A stretch of DNA of 64,000 nucleotides, from positions 8,375,001-8,439,000 of the forward strand of contig OY997596.1 of the NCBI GenBank assembly GCA_963921825.1, in the 5' to 3' direction. Below, piece after piece: positions 2,780 through 51,470 of this stretch. This DNA comes from Erodium maritimum. Lineage: Eukaryota > Streptophyta > Magnoliopsida > Geraniales > Geraniaceae. The translations under genes were made by a program, and so were the position numbers. Within the stretch, counting starts at the first letter, position 1; every line of letters starts with the position of its first letter. The notes beneath the pieces were generated by a model. The model had not been told where the DNA came from. It did not search any database and saw only the letters and a program-made list of their open reading frames with translations.

Positions 2780-5163
2780 AGCACACCGCTACCTCTGTAC
2801 CAGAGGTTCATTTCTTACCCTAGCTCGGGTCTTCTCGCCGCCCCTTCTCCATACCCCCACATCGCCGTCCAAGCTCTGGCATCGTTGGCTGGCTTCGATC
2901 CCCCCTGCATGCCCCTCTGCCATTTGCTACCGTTGTCATCCGGTCCCGACGTGCTTTCCACGAACTCTAGTGTCCAAACCGTGAGACTCCGACAAAAACA
3001 GCGAGTTTTCTCGCCGTCCCTATCATCGGTCCCAACAGATCCGGCCTCTTCACGCTCCTTTTGCCCGAAAATGGATGCCACCGACCAGATCTGGCCCACC
3101 GCCGACCCTCAGCAGCCGCAACCTCCCTCTCTTGCGTGCATTCTGCCCGAGGTCACGTTCTCGTCGACCCCTACCGACGCCCTCCCTCATCGTCCGTCTG
3201 TACACCGTCAGCCCGCCGACAATCTCACCTCTCTGAAGGATAAGCCGGGCGGGGGGTCGGACGGAACCCTTGCCCTAGTTGTTCCGCAGCCACAGTCGTT
3301 TCCGAGACGGAGTCCATCCGAGGCGGTTGGAGGTCAACAGGAGCCGCCGCCCCTTCCTCGACCACAGTTGACGGCGGCCGTGCCCATGTATCGTTGTTCG
3401 GTAGGCCATGCAGTGAGATCGAGTAGCCGGTCGTCAAGTGGATTCGGATCAAATGCGCGTCAGGGGGAGGCAAGTTCAGTCTGTATTTCCCCGGTTCCGA
3501 ACTGGGAGGATGAAGACGATGAGGTGGTGGTCCCGATGGAAGCGGTCACGGTGATCAACAAGGGGACTTATCAATTCTCCCTGGCAGCCCTGGTTGCAGG
3601 GGATCAGACTCACTACCAGAATGCTGTATGCGCAATGATGCTGCAAAAATGGAAGGTGGATGACATTCAGGTTGAGTACATGTCTTCGGAGGTTACGGGA
3701 TATCATTTCCCGTCTGCTGCGACGATGGAGAATATCCGTCATCGGGGGCCATGGATCTTCAAGAGCTTCCCAGTGCTTTTGGAACCCCTCAGGCCCTATG
3801 TCTAGGCAAATAAGATTGAGTTCAATCACATCGAGCTTGGAGTCCGAGCAATGAACGTCCCGATAGGGGATAGGACTCCGCAAGTTCGTGGCCTTATTGT
3901 TGCCATCATTGGTACCCAGGTGGTGTCGGCCCCAATACCCTATGTCCGGCGGGACAAAATGTTTTTATGGATGCGGGTGCGGATGGAGTTGAACCAGCCT
4001 CTTCGGAGACGGCTCCGCCTCAGGTTCCTAGGCACCGCCACCTCTTCGCTGATTGAGCTACAATATGAGAGGCTCACGGACCTCTGTCGCAGGTGTGGGA
4101 TGATGACACACTGGATTATGGGGTGTACGGCTCATTTTCCGGGTATAGGTCGGGAGGAGGTCTGATACGTCACCATTATTCTGGTACCGAGGCAATTGGA
4201 TGTGGATCGGTTGCTGAAGACGGTCTGGCATACACCGCCTTCCCTGGAACATTCATATGTTGATGTTCTCGTGCATGGGCTCTCTCTGAACCCTATGATC
4301 CGTTCCAAGGAGTTCGTCATGGGGGATGGATTCTCTACTGCAGACGTTTCTTCGAAATCTAGCAATCTGGCTAGGACTACCTCAGGAGGGGCAGTCAATG
4401 TTTTGCAGGATGGAGTGAGATGAGCCTGTGGAGGGCCACCGGGATTTACATAGTCTGACAATCTGGCTAACATCCACCCTGCTGGAAACCTTCATGTCCC
4501 TGTCGAGTCCGCATACATGTTAAGGATTCGGGCAGGGAAGGAGAAAGACCTCAAGGAAGCTTTGGGGAAAGCTGGCCCTATTCGGCGAAGGGCCAAGAAG
4601 TCAACCCTGAAGACAAGGAGCGGGTCATTGTATGATCGATCGTCGGGGTCAAAGAAGTCACTGGATCACCCGACCCTCCCACCAGACCTCAACAGCCGGC
4701 CAAAACTGAGGGGGACCAAGAGAAGCAGGCGGAGGCACGACAGTCTCCTATGAAGGGATGAACCGACCCGACAAGGTGGGTGGAGTCGGTGTCGGACTAT
4801 ACCTACAGACCCGGGACATCCAGTGCTGGGAGGTCCCGGGCAGCCTGCAACAACAACTCAGTTCTTTTATATATCTTTTCTCGTTATCTGCATTATTTCT
4901 GGAACAATTTATTCCTTGCTTTGATTAGGACTTTTCATTTCATGTCTCGCTGTTTTGAGACGTTGGTAAAGAGATGTCCTGATTTTTTGCCTACGATGTC
5001 AAGTAGGCTATTGTTATGGGTCCATGAGCGGTGGGCTTGCTACGGTCGGCCCGGACATACATCTGGAACCCTGGGCGGTTACGCCCTACCTTGTTTGATT
5101 ACCTTTGGGTATTAATGCAATTCTCCGGTTACCCGTTTCAAATATATATATATATATATATAT
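2780..5163 (+). mobile_element. LINE derivative with ORF1 and 3' tail but no ORF2
   Basis: Contains a LINE ORF1 (separate entry) followed directly by a lysine/arginine-rich C-terminal stretch (4517-4753), a 3' UTR-like stretch (4780-5115), and the tail CCCGTTTCAAATATATA ending in a (TA)n run at 5141-5163. No reverse transcriptase or endonuclease motif lies between ORF1 and the tail, so ORF2 is absent, presumably by internal deletion. A related tail, CCCGTTTCAAAAAAAA, occurs on the minus strand at 46413. The left boundary near 2780 is approximate and no target duplication was found. Confidence 0.7.
2885..4165 (+). pseudogene. LINE ORF1 protein (DUF4283 + CCHC zinc knuckle), one in-frame stop
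   Basis: A 306-aa reading frame (2885-3805) continues in the same frame, after one TAG codon, to 4165, so about 427 codons are readable. Residues 1-210 are a Pro/Ser-rich disordered region. Residues about 220-305 match the DUF4283 pattern of plant LINE ORF1 proteins, ending in RGPWIFKSFPVLLEPLRP. A basic segment follows, then a knuckle CRRCGMMTHWIMGC (C-x2-C-x4-H-x4-C) near 4087-4128. In intact LINEs this protein binds element RNA; that role is family knowledge. A Met start at 2885 was taken, but the true start is uncertain. A single stop in a long otherwise open frame suggests modest age compared with the LINE at 1-2628. Confidence 0.78.
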
Positions 5164-7640: not shown

Positions 7641-8830
7641 CCTCCCTTATCCGTCCAACTCGCGTGAATAGTATATAAGAACTCAAGTTTTCTAACACTA
7701 TAAGAAAAACATTATTTGACTTTACACATCGAACAAAATAGAAACCATGTCCCTTTTTCTCTCTAAACCTTCAACCGATCCAACCCATCCCCTCTTCCTC
7801 CTACCGTCGGTGGCGGTTGCCATGGCCATCTCTGGCCAGGTGGTCGTCGGTGGAACCCTAAACCCTCTTCCTTTTACCAGCTTCTTCTTCCTGATCCTTC
7901 TCCCTTCCTTAATCTTCTCTTGTTCGTCACTGGTAAGGTTTGGTTGACATGGTTTTTTCGTCGTCGGATTGTTGATTCAACTGAGCTCTCGTGGTTGGAT
8001 GAAGGTCATGAGTGTGGTGGACTGAAGCTCTGGTTGATTACACCTCTCCAACTGTGGTTGACTTCTCCAGCGTATTGTTGACATGCTGCTCTCGGGGATG
8101 TTCTTGTCTCCAACGCGTGGCTGGCGTGCAACTCCTCATGGGTTGAAGTCGTCATGTTCCCAAATTCAGATCTTAAGAATTTTTTTCTCCCTCTGGTTGC
8201 TTGGAGACACCCCGACCATCTCTCTGGCGGTGTCTCGAGCATGTGGGTTGTCTCCCCGAACGGATTTGGTGGTGGGTGATGCTTACTCTGTCCAGCGTTC
8301 CTTTTGTTGTGGTTAGCTCCAACGGTTAGATTACAACAGTTCCTCGCCCCGTTCCTGTTGTGTCGGTCTCCTACGATGTGGCTACATCCGTCGGCTCCGA
8401 CTAATCATTCCAGATCCGGAGTGGGGCACGCTTCTTCAACTTTCAGATTTTAGATCGTAGTGGATTTAGTTTATTTCTTCTGTTCGCGTTAGTGGTGCTC
8501 GGGTCCTTAGTTGTCACCAGCAACTCGTCTCAGATCCAGAGTGGGACGCGTTTCTTTACCCTCAAGTCGTAGATCATCGTGGATTTGGTCGCTTTTGTGG
8601 TGCTCGTGATTCGTTTTCTAGGGAATTCTTTAAACTTCCTTCGCTTATTTTGTCGCTTGTGGACACTCCGCTCTTTCCTTAACTTTAGACTCATTTCGAT
8701 ATCTTGTGTTCCCCTCCATTTTTTGGTGGGGGTTTGTCGATCTTTTTAGGTGTTGGCCTTCGATGGGTAGTTTTGGCTGTTAGGCCTTTGTTGGAAGTTG
8801 AGATTGAAATTCTAACTAGGTGCAACTTTT
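7641..8830 (+). repeat. Probable ORF-less retroposon, plus orientation, sharing the TAGGTGTTGGCC block
   Basis: The 5' half is GC-richer and genic-leader-like (pyrimidine runs, CCCTAAACCC at 7856-7866, Ser/Leu-rich frame 7747-7947); the 3' half is T-rich. A block TAGGTGTTGGCCTTCGATGGG at about 8747-8767 recurs near 10479-10500 (minus), at 31722-31735 (minus) and, slightly changed, at 40603-40624 (plus). An internal direct duplication of about 90 bp occurs: 8410-8500 and 8528-8620, both starting CAGATCC-GAGTGGG-C-CG. About 150 bp before and after the block align with 40515-40660. No poly(A) tail or target duplication was found, so the ends are approximate. Confidence 0.45.
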
Positions 8831-9422
8831 AGATGAGATGTCAATCAGGATGCTATGATATAAGAACTGACATCTTTACTTTTGCATCTAAATATGGAAA
8901 ACAATAAACATAAACAATCACATGAAGACACACGATTAGTTACCCAGTTCGGTACAACATACCTACATCTAGAGGCACTTTTCCAGTGGATTATCAAATC
9001 AATTGATATTTCTCGGTGATTGGTATGTCATCTCACCATTGTTCGTCACAATGTCATCCCTACCTCCTTCTTTGGTCAAAATCTTCCTAAATCCCAACTA
9101 GAAATGGTATGGAGGAACCCTATATCTATGTTTGGTCGAAGGAAGTATATCATGGGATTGTGGAGCACGAACGCGTATGAGAATGCTCAATATGTGAAAT
9201 GTTAAACCCACCAACACATAAATATTGATTCGTTTAGCTCGGAGTCCGAACCTGGATTTGGTGTCAACAAAACCATCGAAGAAGGCGCGACCAATTGCAA
9301 CAGATGAAGATTGACACATGTACAGTCGCACCATAATTCTAGTGGCCTTTTCACCAGCAACTCTCTAGAACCACGACGTTGTACCCTATGCATATAGTTA
9401 ATGAAGTTCGATGAGCAATTTA
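8831..9422. other. Unassigned intergenic sequence
   Basis: No coding domain seen. 8935-8980 (TTACCCAGTTCGGTACAACA...) resembles sequence found in some plant LTR elements, but no LTR ends, primer site or second copy were found here. Confidence 0.3.
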
Positions 9423-11840
9423 TTTTGTTTAGGAAAAATTACATATTTTTTTTGATCAGCAATTTTTTGTTTTATAAAAGACCATGATTTCAAAAGTGAA
9501 AGACATGACCGAGGATATTACCCCTCAAGTACAACAACAAACAGGGCTTTTAAAGCCAGCCAAACAAACCAAACATGGGTCTAACACAAACCTACACCCA
9601 GATATAAAAAATGAAGTACTAAAACTGAAGGGCCAAGCCCAAACTAACAGTACAACAACAGGCCCAACATGGGCAAAACGGGCCAAACGAGCCCAAACTA
9701 AGTAAAACCTAATCAGCAACAAGAGAAGAGGGAGGCCTCGAGCCCCGAGCCGCCGAAGAGAAACACCCCAACCGTCGGAAACGCACCTCAGAGAAGAAGC
9801 ACCTACGACCAACCTCGGCCGGCAAACAAATAACAACAAACCGGTCCAAGCACCGAGAAGAGAGGTGAGATCCCAAGCGACGAGAAGCCAACCCCAACCG
9901 CGACGGGGCCTACCCCCCACAGAACCACAAAGCAAACCAATACCACAAACCTCATCTTCCCCCTCAAACCGCAAGGATCCAACAAAGTGCAAAGAAGGAG
10001 CCCCGACGCCGGGAAAAACCCATCGTCGACCCAAAACTAAGATGCTCCCGTGGATCTAAACCCTCCACCACATCCAAAGTGAAACCCCACCAAACTCAAC
10101 CCCCACAACTTCAACAGAGCCAAAGGCTGAACAACCCACGCCGGTAACCGCCGGTCGTGAGCCCCGAACCACACCACCATGGTCGGGAAAGGAAGTATGA
10201 AGAGGGGAGGGTTTGGGAAGCAACCCAAAGGATAGGGGAAGATTAGACCAAAGAGAAAACAACCAAGTAAACCCAGATCCCATCTCTCCGATCTCCGAGA
10301 AGGAGATCCCGACGGTGGCCAGCACCAACCGGTCGGCCAAAAATAGGGAAGAGACAACAACCAGAGCCTCAAAAATGAGGCGGTGGCGTCAGGAAAACCG
10401 GGGGGCGCAAGTAAAAAGGAAAGTGAGTACCTGAACACAGATCTGAACTCCCCTTCTCAGATCTCGAAGTTTCCAAGACCCATCGGTGGCCAACACCTAC
10501 CGGATGACCTTCACGGCGAGAAGACACTCTGAATAGGGCGCCGAGGAGTATATCTGAGCATCCAAGAGCGAAGAGGCAAAGGAAGACCGAGTAGCCTGAA
10601 GGAGGAAGGAGGATAGAGGTATGGAAAAGAAGGTAAATGATGAAGATAGAAGGAGAAGGGGACCGCCGGCGACAGCCCCGGGAGGCCGCCACCGACGGTC
10701 AAGGACGGAAGGAGAAGAAGGGTGAACTGGCTTAGGGTTTGGAAGGGTTGAAGCTTCTCTCTCTAACCTCCCTTACAATTGACTTATTTTCAGATACCCC
10801 TTAACTATTTTTTTTTTCATAAAACCCCCTTAATTATACATAGTTTTCACTTTAGTCTGTTTTCGTCTAAAAACAGACAGAACCGTGAACATGTGCCAAT
10901 CACATGACCAAATTTTTATTTCAATGACGAAATTACCCTATTGATGTTCACCCTCATTCCCCTCTTTGTTCTTGTTGTTCACTACAGCCCCCACCTCCAC
11001 GGCTCGAAATTGTCGAAGATAGAGCACAACAACCACCACACGAACTCACCTGCCGCACGCCAAGCTCGAGATCGTGGAGTCTCCACCAACACCACCTCCA
11101 CTGCCACTGGATTTGCTCCATCTCCGACCAATCACAGAGCAGCCAGATCTGGAGAAGAGCCATCGTCCTTCTTCCTTATTTCTCATCTTTCTCAACAGTT
11201 TCAAATCAATACTTATGAACCGTTGAGGGTTTAATTGAGTTTTGGTAGAACATTGAAGATCGAACAACCAAATTTTAATCTTCTCATTTTTTGTTGTTTT
11301 AATTTCGAAAAAGGGATATTTTGCAACCAAACTTTCATCTGTTTTGCTGAAATTTATCAGATTTCATTGTCACTGGTTGTAGAGACATTAGGGGTTTCGA
11401 GACTATATGAGTTGTTGCGGAGAAGGAGCCATGGAAATGGGCGAGGAAGGTGTAAAAAAACTATTGTGAAATTGTCCAAGTCATCTACATGTTTACCTGA
11501 CATTTGACATCTAGAAAGGATGAGTGAAAATTGTTGCCGAGGAAGTGGATGGGAGATTAATATTTAAGAAATAAATATTAAACAATAAATAATATATTAA
11601 ATATAGAAATAATATTTTAAGGTTTACAGAACAATGGCATTGATTTGAAAATTTGATGGTTAGTGAGGGATAGTTTTGTCTTTTTACATATTTTTGGATG
11701 GAAAGTTAACGGTGTTGGACCAAAGTGAAAACAATATTTAGTTAAGGGGGTTTTATGAAGAAAAAAAAAATAGTTTAAGTAGGGTATCTGAAAATAAGCC
11801 AATTCTAAGGGAGGTTATGTGTAATTTTCTCTTTTGTTTA
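9423..11840. mobile_element. Mutator-like element (member B), perfect 9-bp target duplication, interrupted
   Basis: Flanked by identical TTTTGTTTA at 9423-9431 and 11832-11840. The left end GGAAAAATTACAT (9432) matches the inverted right end GAGAAAATTACACATAACC (11831 leftward). After a retroposon insertion (about 9444-10763) the left arm resumes as TAACCTCCCTT...TTATTTTCAGATACCCC, matching the right arm around 11772-11817. The element itself is therefore about 1.1 kb. Inside are a hairpin (10854-10880), the paired block ACATGTGCCAATCACATGACC (10890-10909) shared with members C and D, then a genic-looking segment (10935-11240) with a 97-codon frame. No transposase is present. Confidence 0.85.
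9444..10763 (-). mobile_element. ORF-poor retroposon inside the left arm of Mutator-like member B
   Basis: Minus-strand element: its 3' tail is the T-run and TGATCAGC at 9445-9460 (TGATCA plus poly(A) on its own strand), and its 5' end is the CT-rich and AAACCCTAAGCC leader at 10730-10763. The 5' half is GC-rich with CGCCGGCGG-type runs and the 3' half is pyrimidine-rich. It carries the TAGGTGTTGGCC block at 10479-10500. Overlapping frames of up to 169 codons (9525-10034 minus) are Trp/Leu/Val-rich and match no family I know, so I treat them as non-coding. It splits two parts of the Mutator arm. No clear duplication of its own target was seen. Confidence 0.68.
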
Positions 11841-13990: not shown

Positions 13991-14413
13991 AGAAACATAC
14001 CGAGTCTCTTCTAAAACCCTCGCCAGCTAAGGGTCGATGGAACGCTACGTATACGACTTCTGGTACGGTGATTTACACCTCCAGACCTACAACTCGTTCT
14101 ATTAGTCGACAACGTGCCCGCGAAGCTGCACCTTCTGCTGCTGGCGTTTGGAAGCATGGGGCTACCAAGGCCTATAAGGATCACAGTCGTGCGGTTGGTA
14201 AGAAGAAGACATCCAGTGGAGGATGATTTTTAACCCTTTGCATTGTGTTAGGTCTTGTTGTTAAAAGGTTATGCCTTTTAGCTCCACTTAGGAGTTCTTA
14301 TGTAATCGTTGTTTTTGGTCTTCTGACCTGTAGACGATTTCCATCCTGGAAAGTTTGTCTCTTCTTAATAAAAACATGCGTTGATCAAAAAAAGAAGAAG
14401 AAACATACCGAGT
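13991..14413 (+). mobile_element. 5'-truncated LINE copy with perfect 15-bp target duplication
   Basis: Insert 14006-14398 flanked by identical AGAAACATACCGAGT at 13991-14005 and 14399-14413. The first part has an open frame of about 52 codons ending at a TGA near 14226, basic and Ser-rich (RSISRQRAREAAPSAAG; GKKKTSSGG at the end), probably the C-terminus of an element protein. A T-rich 3' UTR follows, then AATAAAAACATGCGTTGATCAAAAAAAG. Severe 5' truncation, an A-tail and a long perfect duplication are hallmarks of target-primed reverse transcription and indicate a young insertion. Confidence 0.85.
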
Positions 14414-31072: not shown

Positions 31073-32431
31073 CGAGACATAATTTTTTTTTTGATCAGCA
31101 AAGCATTATATAAAACTTACTCTTCGAAATGAAGAGTAAGGGTGAAGTACAATGAAAGAGGGATCCTCACTAATCGGATCCTCAAGAACACATCCTCTTA
31201 ACACAAAGGGAATACAATGAAGATGACAAACCACAACAGATTACAACAATGAATGACTAAAGAAAATGAAACAGGTCTAAAACCTCAATAAGACCAACAT
31301 GAAGCCCAACAAAGAAAACAAAGGTCTAAACACCCGAATCTAATCAACAAAAAGCTCAAGAAGAAGAACATTCGGCTGCCAAAACCAACCAAGCAGGAAC
31401 CCTCAGAGCCTCAATCTAAGAAGGAGTAATCTACTCCCATCTCAAAGCTGTCGGCGGCCAGCACCGCAACAGCAGAGACAGGTCCTTTACCTCCAAACCA
31501 AATCAGTAGCTTCAGAGGCGGACAGAGCTGTCCAATGATCTCGCCGGGAAACACCATCCGGCGAGCTCAAACCCGAAGGCTCGAGATGAGATGAAGCAAA
31601 ACTGAAAAGGGAAAAGGTAAAGGACAGGAGAATCGAAGACTCAACCAGAAAGGGGCAAAGAGAGAACCTACGACTCAAACAACCCCTTGTCCAGAATCGT
31701 ACCCACTGCTCCTTACGATTCAGGCCAACACCTAGAAACGCTGGTAGGAGAGAAAGGGTATTTCTACCCTGTATGATCTAGGAAAGCAGAGTTGAGTGAG
31801 CTTACCTCCAAGCACAGTAGCGCGTCCAGAAGAGCAGGGCCTGCGGGCGGCGGCGGAGCACAGATCCACGGAGAAGATCTGAAGGGACCAAATCCGAAGG
31901 CGAGGACACGAATCTGAGCCTTCAAACCACACGAGCAGAGCGTCCCACCCAGACCGCACAGATCCACGGCCAAGCGTCCGGGGAAAAGCGTCCCACACCG
32001 GATCTGAAGAGGAGCGGCTGACGGAGGAGAAGGTTCAGAGCCGATAACCACCCGAGGGGGACAAAGCGGTCCAGAGCGACGGGAGAGAAAAGGAAAAGGG
32101 CCGAGAGAGAGGCTAGAACCGCACCAATCCAAGGAGGAAAGAGCTGCCACGCTAGATCTAGGGTTCTCGAAAGAGGGAGGAAGCAGCTGAACGGCAGATC
32201 TGAGATCTGTCGAAAAAGCCAAAGGGAGAGGAAGAGACGGGAAGAGATGGTAGAGAAGGAGGTGGGGAAGGCGAAGGATGAGAGGAGGAACCGCCAGCGA
32301 CCTCCATGGAAGGAGATCGCCGGCGGTGGAAACTGGGCGGCGGCGACGAGAGGTTGAAGAAGGAAGATGTAGGGTTTCTAGAGAGAGGCTAGAGACTCTC
32401 TCTCTAGAAACTTATTATCCGAGACATAATT
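31073..32431 (-). mobile_element. ORF-poor retroposon with perfect 12-bp target duplication
   Basis: Insert 31085-32419 flanked by identical CGAGACATAATT at 31073-31084 and 32420-32431. On the minus strand it starts with CTCTCTCTAGAAACCCTAC leader sequence, has a GC-rich first half with CGCCGGCGATC and CAGATCT motifs, the TAGGTGTTGGCC block at 31722-31735, a T-rich second half, and a tail ATGCTTTGCTGATCAAAAAAAAAA. Its largest frame (32222-31764 minus, 152 codons) is Ser/Leu/Pro-rich with no domain. The exact duplication and A-tail show L1-style integration of a probably non-autonomous element. Confidence 0.85.
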
Positions 32432-40489: not shown

Positions 40490-41051
40490 TGTAGCTTGTT
40501 GGAAATCTGCTCATCCTTACATTTAGGCTCATTGTGATTTCCTTTATATCCCTACCCTTTAGGGGGGGGGGGGGGGGGGGGGGGGGGTCAATCATTTAGG
40601 TGTTGTCCTTTGATGGGTTATATTTGGTCTTTAGGCTTTGGAAATCGAGGAGTCCTATTTTTTTGGATTTTGAGTTTCGGTGATTATACACCAGATTATC
40701 TCTATCGATAAGCGATGTTGGTCGTCGCCGTGTCGGTGCCCTATAACTCTCTGAGTTTAGGTGCCGATGAGATACAATATTCTCCTCAAACTCGGGTAAG
40801 GTTATGGGTGTTTTCAGTGGTGGGCGCCTACCTTGTTTGAGCTTTATGGTTAACAAATCTGGGTATTAGACCTCTTTTTCTTTGTGCTTCATGGTTGCTA
40901 AATTTGGGTTCTAGACTCATTTTTTATCTGTTTTGTCTTGTGCTTATATGACTATGATATCAGGTTTTGAGACCTTTGTCCTCCCTTGTTGGGGTTGTCA
41001 TGAGGTTGAACTGTCTTTCTAACGCTCGAATATGTTGTTGGTTTCATCTTC
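40490..41051 (+). repeat. Retroposon-like segment sharing the TAGGTGTTG block, with a G26 run
   Basis: Aligns with 8663-8810 over about 150 bp, including TTAGGTGTTGTCCTTTGATGGG at 40602-40623. A homopolymer of 26 G lies at 40562-40587, where the other copy has only GGTGGGGG. The T-rich body continues to the next element. Ends are not defined. Confidence 0.5.
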
Positions 41052-42955
41052 AGGTTTGTAGTTTTTTTTTATCAGCGAAAGTAAATTGAAATTATCTTCT
41101 GAGGTAAAAGATACAAAGCAATAAATCCCAACCCAGCTACAGATTAAGAAGAATTTCCCGAAAGGAAACAACAAATAAACTACCCATCCCCAAAATCAAA
41201 GAACAATGAAGGACAACATGTGTTAATGCAGCCGAATTATGAAGCCTTGAGAACATGCAACCCTGAGAATTGTGAGAAAAGATCCAAGTGCAAGATGTGC
41301 ATGCTTCATGCAGTAGAAGCAAGTGATGTGAGTGAGCCAAATTGTGTAGCCTAGAGAAAAATACATCCCTGTGAATGTGAGTAAAAAAAACCAAGCGCAA
41401 GCTTCATAAACCAGAAGCCAATGCTGATAGTGAGGGTGGGAGAGAGCTTGAGTTGTTATCCAATCCCAAAAGAGTTTAAGGCACAACGAAACACATGAAA
41501 AGATGGAAGCATCTGCAACCTGATGACCCGAGCTTTGGCCAACACCCCAGTAGCCCTAGAAAGGCGCGACTCAAACGAAACCAACGATCTACAGATTGAA
41601 ACCGAAAATACGCGTCTCACCTATTCTGAAACCAAGTTGCCGAAGAAAAGGAAGAAGACCAGAAAGGACCTGCGAAGAAGCCAAGAAACCGCCCAAGAAA
41701 AAAGGGCCGAACCTAAACCGCTCCACAACCCGAACCCGAGGAAGACCCGATCTAGCACGACCCGATCCACCCACGACCCGAAGACGACCGCAAACCGGTC
41801 CCTTCAAAGTCGACCCAGCTCAACAAGCCCTACCCAGCCCAAGCCCGTTCCAGCCCAAGCCCGAAGCAGCACACCTCAGAGAAGTAGACTCTTCCCTCTG
41901 TCATCCAAAGCGATGAGCTCACGCTCAATCCCCCTCACGCATCCGACCTCCACCGAGAAACGCTACAACAGAGAGGACCCAATATTTCTTCTGAGCTTCA
42001 GCCAGCATATTGGAGCTGTAGAGATCGGAGTCCACACAATTGATCCCGCCCAAAACAGCCACCGAGCTTGAAAAAAAACAACCTTTACCAATCCGATTCC
42101 AACAAGTCCGAGCTGTAGCCAACACCACCAGCCACCACAAGGAGAGTTTGAACCTCAACCCCACTATCTCAACTAAGCTGAGAAGAACGCCCCACAACAG
42201 GTAGAGGAGCAAACACCGAAACTCACCTGAGAGGAGAGGACTCAGAAGAGAAAGGAACCCCGACCCAGTCAGTAACCCGACTCGGCCCAGAGTCAAATCC
42301 GGCCCGAAAACCAGATCTGACCTTGATCGTCTGGGAACCAAGCTCCGGCCACTGATCATGCCAAGAAGAGCGGAGAAGGGAGGAGAGCCCCAAGGCTGCA
42401 GAACCAACACGAGGGTAGCAAGACCAGATCGGACACCTCACCTCCACACGGCCAAGACGCACCCACGCCGAGGTCAGGCACCACCACAGGGACGACCAGA
42501 CGGCCGAACGCCACCACGTCGAGGACAGGCACGCCACGGACCTCAAAAGGTCACCGGAGCAGCCACGATGCACTACCAAGAGACCCCAATGAGCAGCACC
42601 ACCAAGCCGACGACTTCACGGCTGGAAAATAGAGCAGGTCCAGAAGAGGGGGCGGGTCCGAGAGAGAGCTCAGGAAAGGAGGAAGAAGGAAGGATAAGAG
42701 AAGAAGAAGAAGAAGAAGAAGAAGAAGAAGAAGAAGAAGAAGAAGAAGAAGAAGAAGAAGAAGAAGAAGAAGAAGAAGAAGAAGGGCAGGGGGGATCCTC
42801 GCCGGCAGCGACCAAGGCCGGAGGCCGAAGCCGTCCGCGGAAAGGACAAGGAGAAGGACGGTGACGACGAGGTAGCAGAGAAGGATGAAGGCTGGGTTTT
42901 CTTTTAGGGTTTTTTCCTAAAACTAAAGTTTTGACTACTCTTAAGGTTTATAGTT
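41052..42955 (-). mobile_element. ORF-poor retroposon with 12-bp target duplication
   Basis: Insert 41064-42943. Flanks are AGGTTTGTAGTT (41052-41063) and AGGTTTATAGTT (42944-42955), 11 of 12 identical. On the minus strand it begins with AACCCTAAAAG leader sequence, has a GC-rich first half that includes a (GAA)n run (42699-42785), and ends in TTCGCTGATAAAAAAAAAC. Plus-strand frames (41523-42071, 42358-42864) and minus-strand frames are basic or low-complexity with no domain. It resembles the element at 31085-32419 in layout and tail, though the TAGGTGTTGGCC block is only loosely present (GGTGTTGGC near 42112-42122). Confidence 0.75.
42699..42785. repeat. (GAA)n microsatellite, about 28 units
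   Basis: Uninterrupted AGA/GAA trinucleotide run inside the retroposon at 41064-42943. It produces an apparent poly-Glu frame on one strand and poly-Ser on the other; neither is a gene. Confidence 0.95.
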
Positions 42956-43154
42956 AGACCATCTTTATGTATTCCATTTCATTCTTCTTTTTTCAACATT
43001 CAAAAATTGAGAGATTTATATATTTTTTCATTGATAAAAAAACATGAAGATATTAAAAGACATTCAACCCTTCTTTCCTGTAAAAATAAAAAAGTCTATC
43101 TTGTCACAACCCTGGAACTTACACTCGCTAGTTCCTCCGTTGTCATAAATAAAA

Positions 43155-48466: not shown

Positions 48467-48545
48467 AGCATTAGGATTATTGTAAGAATAATGACATAGT
48501 TATCTTGTATAGGTGGAATGTATATCTTGTTAGTTAACTTTGTAT

Positions 48546-51112
48546 TTTCGACGTCTATCAATTTTACAGAAACAGTCTTTGGAGGTTCAGTTTACCATGC
48601 CGGAAGTTGAACAGGCTGTAGCAAATTGTGGAGGTTCAAAATCACATGGCCCAACGGTTTCTCTCTAATGTTCTATAAAGAGTGTTGGGATGTTATAGGC
48701 CAAGATGTTTTTAATTCTTTGACAGAATTTCATAAGTCGGGTGGAATGGGGGGGCTTAAACGCTACATTTCATACCTGGATTCTAAATGTATCAAATCTA
48801 GAATCTTGGAACGAACTTCGGTCCATCAACTTGGTTTCATCTCCATACAAGATCCTGCCAAAGATTCTTGCATCAAGGTTCAAAATGGTGCTCACTGGTC
48901 TTATTAATGACGTCCAAAGTGATTTCACAAACAATCGATAATTGGTCGATGGATTTTTAATTGCTTTAGAGATAATACAATACATATGGTTAAAAGGGTG
49001 AAGTTGGAATGTATAATTCTGCAACTGGATTTTGAAAAGGTTTATGACAAATTATGTTGGGACTACTTCGATGATGTTATGGATTTCATGGGTTTTAGTT
49101 GTCTTTGGATATTTTAGATGAAGAGATGCTTCCAAGTTTCTATCTCAGTTTTGATTAACAATGCCCCAAGTTCTGATTTTCTTCTTGCTAATGGTTTACG
49201 GTAGGGCTTTCCTCTCTCTCTCCATTTGTTTTTTTATTAGTTGTTGAGGGTCTCTATCAAATTCTTGAGGATGGATTTAAATCGAGAGATTTTGGAGGGA
49301 TCTTTATTGGGAAGGGTAACTTCATTGTATTGCACTTACAATTCGGAGACGATACCTTGTTGTTCTTTTCTGGTACAGGAGAAGATTTCACGCGATTAAA
49401 GAACACATTGGATTTGTTCCAAAGATGTAGGGGTTAAAGATCAATCATTCTAAATCCAATAGTGTTCTTTTCAACCCAATTGTGTTTTTAGAGGAGATCG
49501 TTTCCTCGGTTTCTTTTTATGTGAAATTAGTGGCCTTCCCATTAATTAGCTCGGCTTCCCTCTTGGCTTTAATCCCTACAAGAGAGGTACTTGGGCTCCC
49601 ATAATCCTGAATTTCAAGAAGGCTTTATCTCAGTGGGCAGTAAAGAACCTGAACATGCCTGGTAGACTAGTTTTAATAAAGTTTACACTAGCGTCTTTAC
49701 ATGTGTTATATATGTCGCTCTTTTAGGAACCTAAGATGGTTATTCTGGAATTAGAACATTTTTAGATGCAGTTTTTATGGAGTGGTAAGGGAAGAGGTCG
49801 AGTTCTTTGTGAAGTCCCTTGGCACATTGTATGCAAGACTAAATCAGAAGGTGGTTTGGGTGTCAGACGTTTTGACAAGGTCAACGAAAGTCTTCTTGGC
49901 AAATGGTTTTGGAGGTTTGTTAAAGAAACATATTCATTATGGAAGCGATTTACGTGTGAAAATTTTGGATGGAACTATGAGGATTGGAATTTGACTAATG
50001 TTGAGAAACCCAATTATGCTTCTATTTTTAAACACATCCTATCCTTAGCTTCTGATCGTACTTTTGCTGGTTTATTTAGGAGGCAGAGCATCCATTGGAA
50101 GGTCGGGGAAAATGCACAGGATTTATTTTGGGAGGATGTGTGGCTTGGGGGTAGACCATCAAGCACTCGTTTTCCTAGCTTATATAGTATAACAAAAACG
50201 AAACATATGAAGATAGATGCATTCTAGAGGGATGGTTTGTTGGTAGTAAATTTTCGCAGGACTCGTTTTGTATATGAGGAATGAAAGGCTACCCAGTTGT
50301 TGTCTTTGTTGAGCTCGGTTAGGCTTGATCGTCCAGGTGTATTTGATTGTGTTATATGGACCATAGCTTCGAGTTTCTCCTCACATAAACTACATAATTT
50401 TTTGATTGCTCATGGTTCAATTTCTCTGGTCTGGAGGCAGATCCTCTGGCTTAAACATTGGCCTCCCAAATATGGTTTATTGATTTGTCTTATACTTCGT
50501 AAAACGATACCTTCTGAAGTGTTTTTGGAATCAAAGGGGTGTCGAATTCTGCTAGCTGATATGTTATGCAGCACTTTCCAAATTGTTTTTGAAGACTGAA
50601 CATATCCTTGTTCATTGCTTCTTTTCTTGGAAAATCTAGATGAGATGTCATTCTTGGTGGAACCTTGTCATTGTGGTTCCTGGGTCTTTTATAGAGTTGG
50701 TATTGATTTGGAGGGGTATTAAGTCAAAGAGAATGTGGTCTCGCTGGGTTAAGCTGGCTTAATTACCAACTTAGTGTCTCTGGTTGAGGAGGAACGATTT
50801 GGTTTTATAACCAAACTAATCGATCCTCAGAGGAAGTGCTTTTACAGATTCAAAAACATTATTTTAACCTCTTTCGATATTCCGGTTTGCTTCAATCGGA
50901 TTCTTCTTTCACTTGCTGGCAGATTTCCCCTTGTATTTGCTTTATATAACATTCAGTTCATTATGTGAACTTATTTCTTAGTTTTGGTGAGGTTTCCTGC
51001 TGTGCGAGTAACCATAGTTTGTATTCTTATTTTTGTTGTGTAGTTGATTTATAAATCTACCCCTTCATTGTACTTAAGTATTTTGAATTAATAAACTCGT
51101 TTATCAAAAAAA
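48546..51112 (+). mobile_element. 5'-truncated LINE (RT + zf-RVT) inside the Copia 5' LTR
   Basis: Begins just after ...GTTAACTTTG of the LTR and ends with ATAAACTCGTTTATCAAAAAAAA at about 51090-51110, after which the LTR resumes (GCTTAGCC). It carries ORF2 pieces: SGGMGGLKRYISYL-like and YKILAKILASRFK blocks (48740-48900), a broken RT core with LQLDFEKVYDKLCWD (49020-49065), palm/thumb blocks (49610-49700), a 153-codon frame (49766-50227) with MQFLWSGKGRGR and GGLGVRRFDKVNESLLGKW, and a zf-RVT-like region to about 50600. Endonuclease and ORF1 are missing. Frames are shifted and stopped several times. Unlike the LINE at 1-2628, no RNase H was seen. Confidence 0.85.
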
Positions 51113-51470
51113 ATCTAGCTTAGCCTTGAAGTCTTATGTGAGTATATATATAGGCAGTAGTCACACAATATATCACAACAAACACAAGAGAGAATTCGTC
51201 CCAATTCTCCACTATAATGGGTGATATTGACACTACTAAGGGAGTTTCCAATTAAACTAATAAGGGTGTGGAGTCTTCTTCTCCATATTATTTACATCCT
51301 TCCTCAAACACAGATCGGATTATCTCCTCGGTGGTGCTTTGTGGGAATAACTACAAACAATGGGCCCATTTGGTCTGTAATGCTTTCAAAGTAAACAACA
51401 AAGTTAGGTTTATTAATGGATCGATTCAGCCTCCCTAGTCAACAAAATCGACGACGTATTATCCATGGGT

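Follow-up and report, generated by a model that had tools for sequence, protein, structure and literature searches.

Our analysis of a 64,000-nucleotide stretch of Erodium maritimum DNA, here referred to as the window, revealed five segments of long retroposons and a short sequence block, TAGGTGTTGGCC-NN-CGATGGG, that recurs among them. The segments and their landmarks are as follows.

8340..8804, +: segment 8, a piece of a further family with its 3′ half missing (partial genome copies)
8747-8767, +: exact block TAGGTGTTGGCCTTCGATGGG in segment 8, the starting finding
9446..10763, −: segment A, a retroposon of ~1.3 kb (genome copies)
9446-9462, −: tail of segment A, TTGCTGATCAAAAAAAA (sequence)
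9450..9531, −: 3′-terminal module of segment A (LINE-only 3′-end profile, E = 1.5e-8)
10479-10499, −: exact block TAGGTGTTGGCCACCGATGGG in segment A
10750..10765, −: 5′ hairpin remnant of segment A, left arm only, right arm missing (compare L013, L025, L027)
31073..31084, −: target duplication AATTATGTCTCG of segment 31, 3′ side, exact 12 bp
31085..32419, −: segment 31, a retroposon of ~1.33 kb (genome copies, target duplication)
31085-31101, −: tail of segment 31 (sequence)
31089..31141, −: 3′ module of segment 31 (LINE profile, E = 5e-4)
31723-31734, −: partial block in segment 31, the first 12 bases TAGGTGTTGGCC only, without CGATGGG
32370..32377, −: AAACCCTA motif of segment 31 (sequence)
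32375..32410, −: 5′-terminal hairpin of segment 31, TTTCTAGAGAGAG...CTCTCTCTAGAAA (z = −6.7, first 75 nt against mononucleotide shuffles)
32420..32431, −: target duplication AATTATGTCTCG of segment 31, 5′ side, exact 12 bp
40588..41063, +: segment 40, first part, its 5′ end lost at the G run 40562-40587
40597-40617, +: block with two mismatches in segment 40
41048..41063, +: target duplication of segment 42, left copy CTTCAGGTTTGTAGTT, 14/16 bases
41062-41080, −: tail of segment 42 (sequence)
41064..42939, −: segment 42, a retroposon nested within segment 40 (genome copies, target duplication)
42940..42955, +: target duplication of segment 42, right copy CTTAAGGTTTATAGTT, 14/16 bases
42956..43043, +: 3′ end of segment 40 beyond the nested insertion, with the tail TTCATTGATAAAAAAAC at 43027-43043 (sequence reading)

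A block shared by unrelated segments

The full block was matched three times in the window (two exact matches and one with two mismatches) against 0.02 matches expected from shuffling, and the 12-mer TAGGTGTTGGCC four times at up to one mismatch against 0.24 expected. Across the whole 763-Mb assembly, 31 exact blocks were found and none for the reversed pattern. The rbcL of this assembly marks it as a plant; its best-scoring chain is 1rlc (tobacco), with 1wdd (rice) 11 bits behind, which hints weakly at a eudicot. These searches bear out the positions that an earlier note had given for the first two blocks, move the one in segment 40 from 40602-40623 to 40597-40617, and reduce the one in segment 31 to a partial match. 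A weaker trace reported near 42115 (−) was found at neither search threshold, that of the full block or that of the 12-mer, and is not significant.

The same note had tied all five segments together by the block. The block does recur in four of them, in segment 31 only in part, but as one family they do not hold: a BLAST comparison of the five with each other returned a single match, of 65 bp between segments 40 and 8 (75%, E = 4e-5), and self-comparison of the window at E = 1e-5 gave no match among them. The A-tails noted earlier in three segments are present in four of the five, in the form TGnTGAT, CGCTGAT or ATTGAT followed by A(n), and the two target duplications claimed were confirmed in segments 31 and 42; none was found for segment A. 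Of 40 scored genome candidates each, the query itself counted, 25 covered the full length of segment A (76-100% identity) and 16 that of segment 31, whose best other copies stand at 97% and 95%. Positions 1-645 and 683-1877 of the segment 42 query match different genome copies, and the partial copies of segment 8 (70-79%) in some cases start from 8310. The block therefore does not define one family but sits inside several.

Other repeats were observed beside these segments. A different repeat of ~190 bp adjoins segment 8 (window 8803-8994; at least 16 copies, 82-91%). At the 5′ end of segment A, window 10764-11817 carries a pair of ~95-bp inverted repeats (87%), is ~1.05 kb long overall and apparently TA-flanked, and looks like a DNA transposon interrupting the 5′ hairpin of segment A. 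At 14381 (+), a tail, CGTTGATCAAAAAAA, lies beyond a T-rich stretch with a hairpin and may belong to a further member. There were no Rfam gathering matches and no tRNA genes within the window, in agreement with the earlier claim that a tRNA-like head is absent.

Families, anatomy and 5′ hairpin

Twenty of the 31 exact block loci were fetched for study. Four (L013, L017, L025 and L027) group with segment A in one family, 13 constitute a longer family B with internal repeats ~240 bp apart (L022 being more distant), and the remaining three (L009, L010 and L015) fit neither family in full; segments 31 and 42 have genome copies of their own and segment 8 has partial ones. The block thus marks several long, non-coding, A-poor, non-autonomous retroposon families. 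The large non-autonomous retroposon family proposed earlier is large and non-autonomous as described, but it resolves into several unrelated bodies that have the block, the composition, the 5′ style and the tail in common.

Where both ends are known, the retroposons measure 1342-2475 bp between their target duplications. Their general build comprises a pyrimidine-rich leader, a tail of the form TTGnTGAT-A(n) and, in the better copies, target duplications of 12-17 bp; a pyrimidine run of at least 9 near the start is found in most but not all bodies. Exact duplications of 13-17 bp were found at 10 of the 20 block loci, two further loci with 9-mers only being left out of this count. Judged by these, family A extends from ~300 bp upstream of the block to ~1050 bp downstream of it, and family B from ~1200-1400 bp upstream to 940-1160 bp downstream. 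The base preceding the duplication is T in seven cases and C in three, and nine of the ten duplications start with A, although some such A may be tail. At L018, an eleventh case, a family B copy interrupts a LINE frame and is flanked by a duplication of 15 bp (at 3883 and 6166). None of the 28 sequences over 1.2 kb shows terminal direct repeats within the element, a feature of TRIM/LARD.

Bodies that do not align nevertheless share an A-poor, T-rich sense strand. Whereas the window as a whole has 29% A, 21 bodies have 11-16% and segment 40, which is truncated, has 17.5%; AATAAA occurs once among these 22. In eight tail fragments, where some flanking DNA may be included, the A content is 13-26% and AATAAA occurs five times. 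The low A content may reflect avoidance of early polyadenylation. In family B the core is conserved and the outer parts diverge more; this pattern and the two-part matches of segment 42 are such as template switching would produce. A retroposon of ~0.95 kb was also observed at L028 (6874-7823, −), with a 5′ hairpin, two GGGTGTTGGCC-like blocks, the tail TTTGCTGATC-A9 and a homologue (84%) in L019.

Several of these elements start with a hairpin. The pattern TCTAGAGAGAG-N-CTCTCTCTAGA was found at 334 genome loci against one for the reversed pattern, and the spacing between the arms is exactly 10 bases in 38 of the 50 loci listed of these 334. This pattern or a close variant starts family A (L013, L025, L027), segment 31 and the ~0.95-kb element of L028. 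Where the duplication is known (four copies), the distance from it inwards to the start of the stem is 8-28 nt, and AACCCT comes next; the AAACCCTA motif of segment 31 is presumably a telo-box. A strong hairpin is common but not universal, being present in 5 of 13 retroposon heads. Among 19 hairpins in the first 54.65 Mb of C1, three have an exact tail 1.3-2.1 kb downstream, against a random expectation of 0.11 and a single wrong-way tail (search up to 3.5 kb). A polypyrimidine/GAGA promoter hypothesis appears in the part of the literature on the Arabidopsis Sadhu elements used here (PMC2848041), and by analogy the 5′ hairpin may act as a promoter.

The 3′-terminal module and its LINE lineage

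The 3′-terminal ~75 bp of some families, above all that of segment A, consists of hairpins and tail and recurs in a lineage of LINEs whose ORF1 contains an RRM and which also have a reverse transcriptase (RT) and a zf-RVT domain; we take this lineage to be the plant L1-clade LINE class with RRM in ORF1. A LINE-only profile built from seven LINE 3′ ends matched through to the tail in L042 (E = 2e-14), L040, L038, L039, L017, L025, L027, L013 (4e-9) and segment A (1.5e-8); the matches of segment 31 (5e-4) and L044 (7e-4) are weaker, that of L037 (0.035) is not significant, and L012 also matches, but by construction. The best match of the reversed control had an E value of 1.4. Ends of family B scored 0.41 or worse where listed, which is not significant, and L041, L043, L010 and the 3′ ends of segments 40 and 42 gave no match at E = 10. 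Many ends without a profile match, including those of family B, carry a hairpin of the type CCTCTT..AAGAGG instead. A LINE-homologous 3′ end together with a conserved hairpin was thus found only in the families that we call type I, namely segment A and its kin, L038-L040, L042 and, more weakly, segment 31. A driver LINE of family B, segments 40 and 42 and the others was not found.

The type I hairpin is conserved as a structure. Its GGCC-stem-loop-GGT pattern, with the inside left free, has 52 genome matches against none reversed, and the mean energy of 39 distinct hairpins is −7.2 kcal/mol, compared with −4.95 when the 3′ halves are reassigned. None of 1000 such permutations was as low, which is not a strict probability since the rows are related; with the pairing register fixed, 49 of 20000 permutations did as well, or 343 of 20000 when each family was represented by a single row. 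RNAalifold kept eight pairs, two with double changes, on a MAFFT alignment (A1) that misplaces the hairpin arms.

A genome-wide count of the tail TTGCYGATC-A8 gave 1727 occurrences, compared with 276 of the reversed sequence. The first eight exact tails on C1 stand at T-rich ends, none of which matches LINE proteins, and LINEs bearing the tail were reached only via L012. This locus holds a decayed LINE with a similar ending, and 4 of its 40 scored genome matches have a separate match to its last ~100 bp; L045, one of these four, carries RT and zf-RVT (Pfam). The top-scoring zf-RVT LINEs (L029-L036) were set aside as partners because the 3′ ends seen for five of the eight (L029, L033-L036) are short, finish in TTTATCTC or TTTCTCTC plus A(n) and lack the module. 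Neither a usable 5′ end nor a target duplication was obtained from the LINE copies L046, L048 and L050. The full-length 5′ end of the tail-sharing LINE is known from one copy only, L054 (C1:131618758), which combines a type I 3′ end with a 15-bp target duplication and a 1239-aa frame that stays open across its RT. Its RRM is recognized by Pfam (E = 1.7e-5), its endonuclease only below threshold (E = 0.0011; none in L045). The leader of L054 measures 162 bp up to the first ATG of the ORF1 frame, and this frame is broken further downstream.

Two other LINE remnants were observed in the window. A relic of an RNase H-type LINE ORF2 (136-2595) is followed at ~2780-3805 by a small hairpin, an ACCCTAG motif and a GC-rich leader similar in style to those of the retroposons; this region, with a sub-threshold DUF4283 match (E = 0.0017), is the probable 5′ end of a second LINE type. 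A decayed LINE of another lineage, ending in CGTTTATCAAAAAAA, occupies 48519-51200.

Among the alternatives to trans-mobilisation, the one that survives best, though we consider it unlikely, is that the retroposons are internally deleted LINEs, in which the 5′ UTR of some lineage became joined to a LINE 3′ UTR, ORF1/ORF2 were lost and the product was amplified. The profile matches do make the 3′ module LINE-like, the leader may still have come from some LINE given the style of the second-type 5′ end, and the sole full-length 5′ end seen belongs to a copy with its ORF1 split over two frames. However, the ~160-bp leader of L054 lacks the GAGA hairpin sequence, the long leader and the block, even though a separate, weaker hairpin forms in its first 75 nt (z = −2.4), so the retroposons are not simple deletions of that LINE. 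For this lineage, and on this one copy, the check set by the earlier note speaks against ordinary deleted LINEs. Only three weak matches to the bodies came from LINE 3′ UTRs: two span 30 bp (E = 0.095), and the third, of 55 bp (E = 0.006), lies within the terminal module itself. Furthermore, LINE ORF1, endonuclease-region, RT and zf-RVT proteins matched none of the 30 retroposon sequences (tblastn, E = 0.1), nor did the ORF2 of the second LINE type, while the same proteins do pick up remnants of LINEs in L009, L012 and L018 as well as in the window. This accords with the earlier report that RT is absent, and continuation into ORF1/ORF2 of the tail-sharing lineage, the earlier mark of ordinary truncated or deleted LINEs, was seen in 0 of 30.

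We regard it as quite improbable that host long non-coding or messenger RNAs gave rise to the elements as retrocopies (processed pseudogenes) through relaxed poly(A) recognition. Gene-like leaders, A-tails and target duplications would fit such an origin, and plant L1s are thought to make processed pseudogenes, according to the part of one study drawn on here (PMC3747384). Against it stand the 25 and 16 full-length copies among 40 scored in the families of segments A and 31, the recurrence of the same 3′ hairpin and tail in several families, and the LINE-profile matches at E values of 1e-8 to 1e-14, which are not expected of a gene 3′ end. Least credible of all is that the bodies encode protein: the frame of 181-202 codons open across the block in 8 of 13 family B copies might be taken for a real small protein, but it was ruled out as coding, as changes in the family B core are spread evenly over codon positions (80, 101 and 90, of ~2330 letters each) and the frame has no Pfam match, and it is probably still open because the copies are recent.

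Proposed mobilisation and comparison with known systems

Collectively, these results make it probable that we are dealing with Sadhu-like non-autonomous retroposons which, in the type I families, are mobilised in trans by a LINE through the 3′ hairpin. RNA polymerase II would transcribe them from the pyrimidine-rich start, often with the GAGA hairpin and AAACCCTA, and the transcript would then be polyadenylated. A type I transcript would end in the structured 3′ module of the RRM/RT/zf-RVT LINE lineage, whose protein, acting in trans, would recognize the 3′ hairpin together with UUGCUGAUC-poly(A). After nicking the DNA at a (T or C)/A site, this protein would insert a copy of the RNA by target-primed reverse transcription, and target duplications of 12-17 bp would result. 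The other families may use a similar device with another LINE. The insertions, target duplications, tails, non-coding state and structurally conserved type I 3′ module that enter this scheme are observed directly, within the sequence of one genome.

A broader reading is possible but doubtful, namely that a flowering-plant L1-type LINE with stringent 3′ hairpin recognition supports a guild of long non-coding Pol II retroposons that evolve as interchangeable modules. These would be a portable 5′ hairpin/promoter (two inverted GAGA tracts, mostly 10 bp apart), A-poor bodies that can be exchanged and a 3′ hairpin that imitates that of a LINE. It was debated in 2013 whether plant L1 LINEs recognize a particular 3′ structure or poly(A) alone, at a time when only three tail-sharing SINE/LINE pairs were known in flowering plants, as stated in the part of that study considered here (PMC3747384). 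A genome with an open-ORF2 LINE and several long non-coding families bearing the same hairpin allows a direct test of this debate, and the 5′ hairpin offers a candidate portable promoter for testing.

Among known systems, the literature searched named no further plant family of such kind. The tail-sharing LINE itself has the 3′-terminal module and the target duplication in common with the retroposons, which differ in their other 5′ end and in lacking an ORF1/ORF2 match. The sections of the 2010 Sadhu paper used here (PMC2848041) describe non-coding Arabidopsis elements of ~900 bp with no tRNA/5S similarity, a poly(A) tract, 7-16 bp target duplications, a polypyrimidine region near the 5′ end, divergent subfamilies and a LINE-like nick site; they favour LINE mobilisation and call the source of the machinery unclear. 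As far as these sections go, every one of these features except the length recurs here. The retroposons differ from Sadhu in being 1.3-2.5 kb long, in having more loci (judged by the tail counts above) and in that a LINE with the same 3′ end as some families has been identified. The Sadhu 5′ motif CAATCGTTSC was found in none of the 30 sequences (at most one mismatch, first 250 nt), eight of which are tail fragments without a known 5′ end. In maize, ZmSINE2/3 and LINE1-1_ZM share a 3′ end of ~50 nt with a hairpin supported by compensatory changes, according to the part of PMC3747384 drawn on here; a 3′ end and hairpin common to a LINE likewise characterize the type I families. The SINEs of such pairs are listed there as tRNA-headed, whereas the retroposons described here are long and lack a tRNA head, the absence of Rfam matches and tRNA genes in the window speaking also against 5S- and 7SL-derived heads. 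Although they depart from Sadhu in motif and length and from SINEs in the head, the retroposons work like Sadhu and like the tail-sharing SINE/LINE pairs.
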